Positions 30,657 through 37,943 of a stretch of 64,000 nucleotides of DNA are shown here, in pieces; positions within the stretch are counted from its first letter, which is position 1, and the number at the start of each line of letters is the position of its first letter. Location: contig NZ_JAMXBE010000003.1 of NCBI RefSeq assembly GCF_024704835.1, positions 372,001-436,000 of the forward strand, given 5' to 3'. The DNA is from Parapedobacter tibetensis (GTDB lineage: Bacteria > Bacteroidota > Bacteroidia > Sphingobacteriales > Sphingobacteriaceae). Below the pieces are notes generated by a model that was not told the DNA's origin, did not search any database, and saw only the letters and a list, made by a program, of their open reading frames with translations. The position numbers were made by a program, and so were the translations under genes.

Positions 30657-30672
30657 TGTTCCACGTGGAACA
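30657..30672. promoter_or_regulatory. parS centromere-like site 1
   Basis: TGTTCCACGTGGAACA, a perfect 16-base palindrome that differs from the classical parS TGTTTCACGTGAAACA by one symmetric change. ParB spreads from such sites to organise the origin region. Confidence 0.85.
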
Positions 30673-30701
30673 TTTAACGGGCAGCAGGAATCCACTAAAA
30701 T

Positions 30702-30717
30702 TGTTCCACGTGGAACA
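30702..30717. promoter_or_regulatory. parS centromere-like site 2
   Basis: A second identical copy of TGTTCCACGTGGAACA, 45 bases centre to centre from the first and 15 bases before the mnmG start codon. Two identical 16-base palindromes this close cannot be chance. Confidence 0.85.
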
Positions 30718-34888: not shown

Positions 34889-36475
34889 TCAAAAAACCGT
34901 ATCCACCAACTCTTCTGCATAGTGAGGATAATCCGTGGTATAATGTAGCCCCCGACTTTCCCGGCGGGCCATGGCAGATTTAATAACTAAATAAGCAACT
35001 TGGATCACATTCCGCAATTCGCACAATTTCACGGAAAGCTTCGTATTCTTATAAAAACTTTCTGTTTCATCATATAGTAATCCAAGTCTACGCATAGCGC
35101 GTTCTAACCTGAAATCTGAACGTACAATACCCACATAATCACTCATTACTTTCTGCGTTTCCCGAAGGTTATGAGTGACCAAAATATCTTCATTGGAAAG
35201 TGTTGTATCCGAATCATCCCAATCCGGTATACCAACAGGAATACCGATATTTCTAATTTTTTCAACCACATCTTCATAAATACGATGTGCAAAGACTGTT
35301 GCTTCCAATAAAGAATTGGAAGCCAACCGATTAGCCCCATGAAGTCCGGTTGAAGCGCACTCTCCACATGCATAAAGATTACGAATGGAAGAGCGCCCAT
35401 TCTCATTGACCATAATCCCACCGCATAGATAATGTGCTGATGGAGTTACTGGAATATAATCTCTTGACATATCAATACCGATAGATAAACACTTGGCATA
35501 AATATTTGGAAAATGCTTCAAAATCTCTTCTTTATCCCGATGGGTAATATCCAGATAGACAAACTCATCTCCTGATTTTTTCATCTCCGAATCTATTGCC
35601 CTGGCTACAATATCTCGCGGTGCGAGAGATCCACGTTCATCATACTCTTCCATGAAACTTTCGCCATTCCTTCTCCTAAGCAAACCACCAAATCCCCGCA
35701 CTGCTTCTGAAATAAGAAACGCCGGATACTCACCAGGATTATATAACGCAGTAGGATGGAACTGAATGAACTCCATATTGCGTACCTTACCCTTTGCACG
35801 GTAGACCATAGCAATACCATCACCTGTAGCAATAACCGGATTTGTAGTGCTGGAATAAACATGCCCCGCACCACCTGACGCCATCACCGTTACCTTGCTT
35901 AGTACCTTCTCCACACGATTATCCACCGTATCAAATGCGTACACACCATAACAAGTAATATTTTCCGTGCTTTTATCCACAAAGTCCCCTAAATGATGTT
36001 GGGTAATCAGATCAACCGCAAAATAATGAGTAAGTATTTCTATATCAGGATTCTCATGCACTTTCTTTAGCAAAGTCCGCTCTATCTCAAAACCAGTGAT
36101 ATCCTTATAATGCAAAACACGATGTTGCGAATGTCCGCCCTCTTTTGCCAAATCGTAGACACCATTTGTGTCTTTATCGAAATGCGTACCGTAATCTATA
36201 ATCTCCTGAATGCGGAGTGGTCCCTCCTTCACAACGTTTTCCACAATATTCACATCGCATAAACCATCTCCAGCGACCAGTGTATCAGTTATATGCTCTT
36301 CAAATGAATCTGATTTATCAACAACTACAGCAACCCCACCTTGTGCATACTTTGTATTGGATTCATCTTCATTTGCCTTTGTGATAATCATCACTTTACC
36401 ATGCCTTGCAGCCTTCAACGCGAAACTCAAGCCTGCTATACCTGAACCAATCACCAAAAAATCAACTTGACGCAT
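34889..36475 (-). CDS. nadB: L-aspartate oxidase
   Basis: Flavoenzyme that oxidises L-aspartate to iminoaspartate, the first step of de novo NAD synthesis; NadA then uses the product. The 528 residues start VIGSGIAGLSFALKAA (FAD loop), followed by KYAQGGVAVV, GHSQHRVLHYKD and HPTALYNPGEYPAFLISEAV, all characteristic of NadB. The C-terminal helical part has RAMRRLGLLYDE. Divergent from nadA with a 472-base AT-rich gap that may be the replication origin. Confidence 0.97.
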   Translation of the reverse strand: MRQVDFLVIGSGIAGLSFALKAARHGKVMIITKANEDESNTKYAQGGVAVVVDKSDSFEEHITDTLVAGDGLCDVNIVENVVKEGPLRIQEIIDYGTHFDKDTNGVYDLAKEGGHSQHRVLHYKDITGFEIERTLLKKVHENPDIEILTHYFAVDLITQHHLGDFVDKSTENITCYGVYAFDTVDNRVEKVLSKVTVMASGGAGHVYSSTTNPVIATGDGIAMVYRAKGKVRNMEFIQFHPTALYNPGEYPAFLISEAVRGFGGLLRRRNGESFMEEYDERGSLAPRDIVARAIDSEMKKSGDEFVYLDITHRDKEEILKHFPNIYAKCLSIGIDMSRDYIPVTPSAHYLCGGIMVNENGRSSIRNLYACGECASTGLHGANRLASNSLLEATVFAHRIYEDVVEKIRNIGIPVGIPDWDDSDTTLSNEDILVTHNLRETQKVMSDYVGIVRSDFRLERAMRRLGLLYDETESFYKNTKLSVKLCELRNVIQVAYLVIKSAMARRESRGLHYTTDYPHYAEELVDTVF

Positions 36476-36947
36476 AAACTTAATGAACTAATGGAAAGGA
36501 AATGGGAACCAATACGTATATAACTTTGTTAATAACATGTCCACAAACCGTTGATAAAAATTAAAAATAACTAATCTTCAATCTTCAATCTATTTTTGAA
36601 CAATACTTCTATAAAAACACCCTACAAAACTTCACAATATTAACAATTATCAAGCAATAAAAAGTAGACATTAGTATATGGAAAACAATTTCCGAAAAAA
36701 ATAAAGCTATTGAAAATCAGCATAAACGGATTAAATTAATGTTAACAATATGTTAAAAAATATCCAATAGCGTCAAATCAAAATAAAAAAGCATCATGTT
36801 TCTCACAAAACTAACACCTTAACAAACAATAAGAAATTATATATAAATATATTATTATTACTTATTGTGTCTGTTGAAATGTGAAAATCAAATCAATTTG
36901 TTTAGCTACCTTTGTATTATCAATTTAGATGTAAGGAAGCGTGCCAC
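36476..36947. other. AT-rich gene-free gap between nadB and nadA, candidate oriC
   Basis: 472 bases with no reading frame of note and very low GC. DnaA-box-like words on the minus strand are TTATTAACA at 36527-36535 (8 of 9 to TTATnCACA) and TTATCAACG at 36549-36557 (7 of 9), same orientation, 22 bases apart. Long A/T runs follow (36560-36890), including ATATAAATATATTATTATTA near 36841, suitable as an unwinding element. Two parS sites lie 6 kb away, and G/C use changes across the gap. Designation as origin is inference. Confidence 0.5.
36907..36914 (+). promoter_or_regulatory. -7 element of nadA
   Basis: TACCTTTG, an exact TAnnTTTG. It overlaps the TTG that would begin the longest frame at 36912, so that frame's start is inside the promoter and ATG 36948 is the real start. 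Confidence 0.6.
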
Positions 36948-37943
36948 ATGGAGACTTATCTAACTGAACTCAGTGCAAAAGGTTTTATCGATGAACCAAT
37001 AGATCCTACATTGGATTTGGTTGAGGAGATAAACAGACTTAAAATAGAAAAAAACGCTGTTTTGCTGGCTCATTATTATCAAGAGCCTGAAATACAAGAT
37101 ATAGCGGATTATGTAGGCGATAGCTTAGGCTTATCACAACAGGCAGCCAAGACGGAGGCCGATGTAATCGTATTTGCTGGTGTGCATTTCATGGCAGAGA
37201 CAGCAAAAATATTGTCACCAAGCAAGAAAGTATTGCTTCCAGATCTTAAGGCGGGTTGCTCATTGTCGGATAGCTGTCCACCCCATCTTTTTGCCAAGTT
37301 CAAGGAGCAATATCCAAATCATATCGTTATTACGTATGTCAATTGCACCGCGGAGCTTAAGGCGTTGAGCGATATCGTATGCACTTCTAGCAATGCTCTT
37401 CAGATTGTGGATAGCTTGCCGGTAGATCAACAGATTATTTTTGGTCCGGATAAGAATTTAGGTGATTACGTACGGAAAAAAACAGGCCGAGACCTAGTAC
37501 TTTGGAATGGAGCTTGCATGGTTCATGAAATTTTTTCGCAAGAACGGATAGCCAGGTTGAGGGCTGAACACCCCGATGCCAAATTCATTGCCCATCCGGA
37601 ATGTGAAAAAGAGATTTTAGATGTAGCAGACTATATCGGATCTACTTCTGGATTACTTAATTATACAAAAGGAAATCCTGCTGATACATTTATTGTGGCT
37701 ACCGAAAGTGGTATTATCCACCAAATGCAGAAAGCCAATCCGCAGAAGACATTTATTCCAGCACCACCCAATAATGCCTGCGCCTGTAATGATTGCCCAT
37801 ACATGAAGCTCAATACCTTGGAGAAATTGTATAACTGCATGAAGTATGAACTTCCGGAAGTGGATTTACCCATGGATATGATTGCCCGTGCTCAACGGCC
37901 CATTGAGCGCATGTTGGAAATTTCGGCGCGGCTGGGCCTGTAA
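36948..37943 (+). CDS. nadA: Quinolinate synthase A
   Basis: Iron-sulfur enzyme that condenses iminoaspartate with dihydroxyacetone phosphate to quinolinate. The 331 residues contain [20 protein letters not shown] near the start, [17 protein letters not shown], and the three cluster cysteines: one in YVNCTAE, one in WNGACMVHE, and one of those in CACNDCPYM near the C-terminus. I begin at ATG 36948 because a -7 element covers the upstream TTG. It is divergent from nadB and followed by thiL 86 bases later. Confidence 0.97.

Follow-up and report, generated by a model that had tools for sequence, protein, structure and literature searches.

The divergent nadB-nadA gap

The window (the whole 64,000-nucleotide stretch of Parapedobacter tibetensis DNA analysed here) carries nadB on the minus strand (start codon at 36475) and nadA on the plus strand (start at 36948), whose products match the Pfam families FAD_binding_2 and NadA, respectively. 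The gap between these divergent genes is 472 bp long, has 25.0% GC and contains no open reading frame (ORF) of at least 100 aa, in agreement with a sequence-only reading of the same DNA that had described it as AT-rich and gene-free and had proposed it as a replication origin. That reading had also pointed to two perfect parS sites about 6 kb away next to mnmG, and to a dnaA gene that is not adjacent. Both statements were confirmed: the parS sites lie 5.8 kb from the gap, just upstream of mnmG (Pfam GIDA match), and dnaA is located on a separate contig.

36476..36947, no strand: candidate oriC in the divergent nadB-nadA gap (25% GC, flanking genes, match to profile R1, below)
30657..30717, no strand: two perfect parS sites upstream of mnmG, 16-mers TGTTCCACGTGGAACA at 30657-30672 and 30702-30717

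DnaA-box-like words in the gap and in related gaps

The sequence-only reading further rested on two DnaA-box-like words in the same orientation, 22 bases apart. Both are present, TGTTAATAA at 36527-36535 and CGTTGATAA at 36549-36557, each with two mismatches to TTATCCACA read in reverse. Taken by itself, the gap of the window did not stand out in such words at up to two mismatches. None had ≤1 mismatch (0.24 expected), and the count at ≤2 mismatches (4 vs 2.51 expected) was no better than chance, as 70/300 dinucleotide shuffles did as well. At ≤3 mismatches there were 26 words vs 16.2 expected, a count matched by 3/300 shuffles.

Comparison with relatives changed this picture. nadA was present in 49/60 related genomes (30 loci among the matches listed), and the best 80 nadA loci of the species collection, in which the closest named relative was Parapedobacter soli (86%), were added to give 110 nadA loci in total. 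Divergent nadB was found beside nadA in 49/110 loci, with gaps of 390–608 bp and 19–34% GC; several other nadA loci end at contig ends, where the absence of nadB is not always informative. Forty-seven of these gaps, all from Sphingobacteriaceae, were distinct, and their core was realigned (alignment A1). The length of the nadA-side core was 169–181 bp in all 47. Over these gaps the box cluster exceeded chance, with 1.40 boxes per gap vs 0.16 in shuffles at ≤1 mismatch and 5.62 vs 2.01 at ≤2 mismatches, the rows being related and not independent. Boxes were conserved at aligned positions over the 47 gaps, a check that the sequence-only reading had proposed for close relatives. Of its own two words, 36527 is a family-conserved box position, whereas 36549 falls outside the 14 best conserved offsets. 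Four prominent positions of the nadA-side core (36740, 36751, 36799 and 36808) had not been named.

Box-like words also occur inside nadB, where the window carries five with ≤1 mismatch in one shared orientation close to the gap (35907-36323). For the window's own nadB, these five compare with 2.6 in synonymous shuffles, 19/500 of which reach 5. Across the first 900 bp of nadB in 49 related loci, boxes in one orientation at ≤1 mismatch numbered 109 vs 59 in synonymous-codon shuffles, and the highest of 60 shuffles gave 70 (the loci are related). The excess in nadA was smaller (16 and 7 vs 7.6 and 3.7, again for related loci). The excess in the coding sequence of nadB therefore suggests that the origin may extend into this gene.

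Layout of the conserved core

The features recognised in the gap are as follows; mismatches are to the DnaA box unless stated otherwise, and rows are those of A1.

36527..36535, minus: nadB-side box-like word, the first noted earlier; conserved offset, mean 3.13 mismatches, 15/47 rows ≤2
36549..36557, minus: box-like word, the second noted earlier; 2 mismatches, outside the 14 best conserved offsets
36637..36645, plus: middle box-like word ATATTAACA; mean 3.28 mismatches over 47 rows, 7/47 ≤2
36677..36685, minus: middle box-like word TATGGAAAA; 23/46 rows ≤2 mismatches
36715..36727, plus: possible IHF-type bending site, by the conserved TGAAAATCA word; 33/47 rows ≤2 mismatches to the IHF-type motif; weak
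36740..36748, minus: box pair 1, first box TGTTAACAA; mean 3.45 mismatches, 19/47 rows ≤2
36751..36759, minus: box pair 1, second box TGTTAAAAA; best of all offsets, mean 2.43, 20/47 rows ≤2
36799..36807, plus: box pair 2, first box TTTCTCACA; mean 2.55, 24/47 rows ≤2
36808..36816, plus: box pair 2, second box AAACTAACA; mean 3.43, 7/47 rows ≤2
36817..36833, plus: conserved tract, family consensus CnCTAATAAACAATAAn; near-invariant columns in A1, at the site where DnaA-trios are expected
36834..36867, no strand: AT-rich stretch, proposed unwinding region; AT-rich across A1 rows
36907..36914, plus: possible nadA promoter word TACCTTTG; TAnnTTTG match outside the conserved core

For reference, all offsets of A1 average 6.35 mismatches to the box. 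Because the boxes at 36740 and 36751 lie on the minus strand and those at 36799 and 36808 on the plus strand, they form two direct pairs that face each other. Pair 2 (36799-36816), a tandem pair aligned in all 47 rows, reads TTTCTCACA AAACTAACA in the window and TTATCCCCA TTTTCCACA, near the textbook box, in a Sphingobacterium locus (L034). It is followed by the conserved tract (consensus CTAATAAACAATAA) and then by the AT-rich stretch, in the window as in the other rows of A1, where the duplex would be predicted to open. On the nadB side, 36527 and 36504 were further conserved offsets; at 36504 the window's own sequence does not resemble a box.

An IHF site between the middle words and pair 1 was considered and not adopted. 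Scored against the IHF-type motif, the best offset barely exceeded other AT-rich offsets, and the window's own word has 4 mismatches (by eye).

A profile of the core follows the element through changing neighbours

Profile R1 was built from the sequence of the nadA-side core only. In the window's genome it found one strong place, this gap (E = 3.6e-21), followed by the next independent match at E = 0.073; the window's own score is high by construction, because the window was included in the model, and it is the drop to the next match that is informative. R1 also matches 36812-36924 weakly on the minus strand (E = 0.005), as expected from box pairs that face each other.

Seven family genomes that had not contributed to the model were also searched; in five of them (G034, G011, G030, G014 and G017) the top R1 match adjoined nadA. 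In G015, where nadA lies at a contig edge, there was no convincing R1 match (E = 0.025). The remaining genome, G012, is small and gave no match to nadA, and still carries an R1 match of E = 2.4e-11 (G012:C2:273627-273783, L287). There the element lies between counterparts of the window genes located just beyond nadA and nadB, namely a thiL-like gene (71% identity) and a hexapeptide gene (67%), and neither nadA nor nadB was matched within the 3.2 kb locus. The element has therefore outlasted both nad genes at this place. Among 61 named nadA loci that lack nadB, 17 R1 matches at E ≤ 0.01 were found in 16 loci, 16/17 of them immediately upstream of nadA; no R1 match reached this threshold in the remaining 45.

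Beyond the family, R1 matched at E ≤ 0.1 in 94/148 genomes of the class, many of them weakly. As the weak matches in other families include chance ones, they were counted only where gene context or parS supported them. Among the 25 other-family loci listed, nadA adjoined the R1 match in 12, nine of which had an RpiB-like ORF on the opposite side. An RpiB-like ORF adjoined the match in 10 of the other 13, with a MORN-like ORF opposite in 9 of those 10. The RpiB-like and MORN-like calls were made by eye and are Pfam-named in L239 only. The neighbours in L257 were not recognised, and parS-like sites lie 3.3 kb from its R1 match; L261 has a Sir2-like ORF (by eye) on one side and a contig end on the other. 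The match in L263 falls in a coding region and is probably due to chance. The overall pattern is most readily explained by a single inherited origin that has changed neighbours.

The same data bear on whether the conserved gap instead regulates the divergent nadB and nadA genes jointly. Their promoters must lie inside the gap wherever the two genes flank it, as they do in the 49 loci described above, and the promoter-type word TAnnTTTG occurs in the window's gap four times (36521, 36591 and 36907 on the plus strand, 36806 on the minus strand), the copy at 36907 being a possible promoter word for nadA. However, the core of G012 and of the 9/25 listed loci between RpiB-like and MORN-like ORFs occurs where neither gene adjoins, and shared nadB/nadA regulation leaves the parS and skew results (below) unexplained. 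A nadA/nadB operator was set aside because of the former, and we consider it very unlikely as an account of the gap.

Partition sites near the core

The two parS sites of the window are the sole sites with ≤1 mismatch in the 5.98 Mb draft genome. At the same threshold, 9/10 family genomes had one or two sites each, at hand-measured distances of 4.4–6.6 kb from the gap or element; in G023, no parS was found at ≤1 mismatch. We further searched 33 genomes from other families at ≤2 mismatches, of which 27 had a match, 20 of them among the matches listed. A parS-like site was found on the contig of the R1 match in 17 of these 20 (median distance 5.8 kb) and within 35 kb of it in 15/20, where ~1.5 would be expected. 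The misses were G150, G108 and G121 (other contig), G151 (211 kb) and G080 (78 kb). As a reversed control pattern also matches at 2 mismatches (in G132, 1 site vs 5 control sites), the counts at ≤1 mismatch are safer: among the 16 listed genomes with such a site, 14 have it on the same contig and 13 within 35 kb of the R1 match. One locus carries an array of seven parS-like sites, six of them perfect and the other with 1 mismatch, at ~99 bp spacing and 3.3 kb from an R1 match (G069:C24:13202-13810).

GC skew, 16S direction and the position of dnaA

The cumulative GC skew check suggested by the sequence-only reading was run in relatives assembled as single contigs, with the sampled switch bracketing the gap in two and a misfit in a third. 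In G035, mean skew was +0.058 to the right of the gap and −0.067 to the left, the best split was the gap, and over 200 contiguous kb the cumulative minimum fell at 317,604, the nadA edge of the gap. In G014 (right +0.029, left −0.034), the sampled switch bracketed the gap, whose split score was 0.063 compared with a best of 0.067 one sampling step later, and the cumulative minimum over 200 kb was 15 kb from the gap. All 16S genes were directed away from the gap in both genomes (5/5 in G035, 3/3 in G014). G023 showed no skew minimum at the gap (0.011 Mb), with the minimum at ~1.85 Mb and the maximum at ~3.3 Mb, and this misfit held at twofold denser sampling. Only 1/2 of its 16S genes were co-oriented, and its core still adjoins nadA; inversions, a misassembly or relocation of the origin could account for this. 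A genome from another family, G132, sampled at 20 stretches of 5 kb, gave no skew signal (0.006 to the right, −0.001 to the left). On the window's own contig, skew was weak (8/13 sampled stretches with the expected sign). The cumulative minimum of the window is at 36,827, inside the gap, partly because nadB and nadA diverge there.

These results also allow an origin elsewhere nearby to be weighed, for example at parS/mnmG ~6 kb away, with the gap serving as a DnaA-binding accessory site. The proximity of parS and mnmG and the 15 kb offset in G014 would suit such an arrangement, and a flavobacterial origin has been placed at mnmG by Ori-Finder prediction, as outlined in PMC12843772. Against this, the G035 minimum is at the edge of the gap itself, and where parS and the core share a contig in other families, the distance between them ranges from 3 to 78 kb while the core retains its length. 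An origin displaced from the gap in this way is, in our judgement, highly improbable.

An origin beside dnaA, as in many bacteria, would follow an arrangement that is common in other phyla; we regard it as scarcely credible here. dnaA is 0.36–1.01 Mb from the gap in five relatives (G004, G014, G018, G024 and G035) and, in G014 and G035, does not coincide with the skew switch; at eight dnaA loci, no R1 match was stronger than E = 0.46. G023 cannot separate the two positions, because its dnaA is ~10 kb from the gap. Bacteroidetes oriC is, moreover, commonly far from dnaA according to the account in PMC4755523. Besides dnaA, further Bac_DnaA-domain matches were observed in G014:C1 (10) and G035:C1 (5), several with identical scores; these are possibly transposon helper ATPases.

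The gap as a probable replication origin

We conclude that the gap 36476-36947 is very probably the chromosomal replication origin oriC (probability roughly 0.9), since relatives retain a matching DNA signal although neighbouring genes have changed or been lost. The observations behind this are the conservation and layout of the core, the single strong R1 match, the linkage to parS, the skew switch in two single-contig relatives and the persistence of the core without nadA and nadB. The proposal of the sequence-only reading is thus supported, mainly by comparison with relatives rather than by the reasons it gave.

At this origin, DnaA would bind several degenerate boxes in the gap. The pair at 36799-36816, abutting the conserved tract and the AT-rich stretch, could provide the platform for a DnaA filament that invades one strand and melts the duplex at ~36817-36867. 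Additional DnaA may come from the opposing pair at 36740-36759 and from boxes on the nadB side, perhaps brought close by a bend. Following initiation, two forks would depart from the gap in opposite directions, and ParB at parS, 5.8 kb away, would segregate the new origins.

A broader reading is that one ancestral oriC module of the Bacteroidia remains recognisable by its sequence while its neighbours turn over (rpiB-nadA, rpiB-MORN, SurA-like-nadA, Sir2-like-nadA, nadB-nadA and thiL-hexapeptide). Such a module would combine degenerate facing pairs with a DnaA-binding region extending into nadB coding sequence and a lineage-specific strand-entry tract, CTAATAAACAATAAG, that replaces canonical DnaA-trios. 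We regard this as tentative, at somewhat short of even odds, in part because the parS counts at 2 mismatches are partly matched by the control.

Without an adjacent dnaA as a landmark, origins in Bacteroidota are difficult to locate. A profile able to recognise the origin in draft genomes regardless of gene context would help to set coordinates, to estimate growth from coverage and to build replicating plasmids for harmless Sphingobacteriaceae. The conserved tract at the expected trio site likewise lends itself to testing as a variant strand-opening signal.

Comparison with known systems

Escherichia coli oriC resembles the gap in having an array of boxes, possibly with an IHF-type site alongside; this likeness is one of description, and the window's own sequence is a poor match to an IHF site.

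The remoteness of Bacteroidetes oriC from dnaA was already known (PMC4755523). What is added here is the gap as a candidate origin, the core profile and its persistence through neighbour changes. Among the abstracts searched, no nadA- or nadB-linked origin was found, and we do not claim that none has been published. The predicted oriC of Prevotella intermedia OMA14 is similar in size (476 bp vs 472 bp, both intergenic-sized) and, as described in PMC4755523, has several DnaA boxes at a skew transition that is not near dnaA. The likeness between the two is one of description. The boxes here are degenerate, and the family-wide core, the parS linkage and the changing neighbours go beyond what that description of OMA14 provides.

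In layout, the gap resembles the basal unwinding system (BUS) of Bacillus subtilis, where a tandem box pair, a conserved tract and an AT-rich stretch also follow one another (as presented in PMC6669920 and PMC8287927). The trios of the BUS are described in these sources as 3'-NAN-5' triplets close to the box, 3'-GAT-5' being commonest. In contrast, the tract at 36817..36833 mostly does not consist of canonical DnaA-trios: one triplet occurs in the window, and runs of 5, 2 and 1 in 1, 32 and 14 of the 47 rows, respectively. Three CTA triplets in register were seen (by eye) in G014, which is outside the model. Since the trio run is mostly absent, canonical DnaA-trios were rejected for this tract and the element was not filed as a canonical BUS; by analogy of its layout, with a tandem pair beside the proposed opening site, it probably works like a basal unwinding system.
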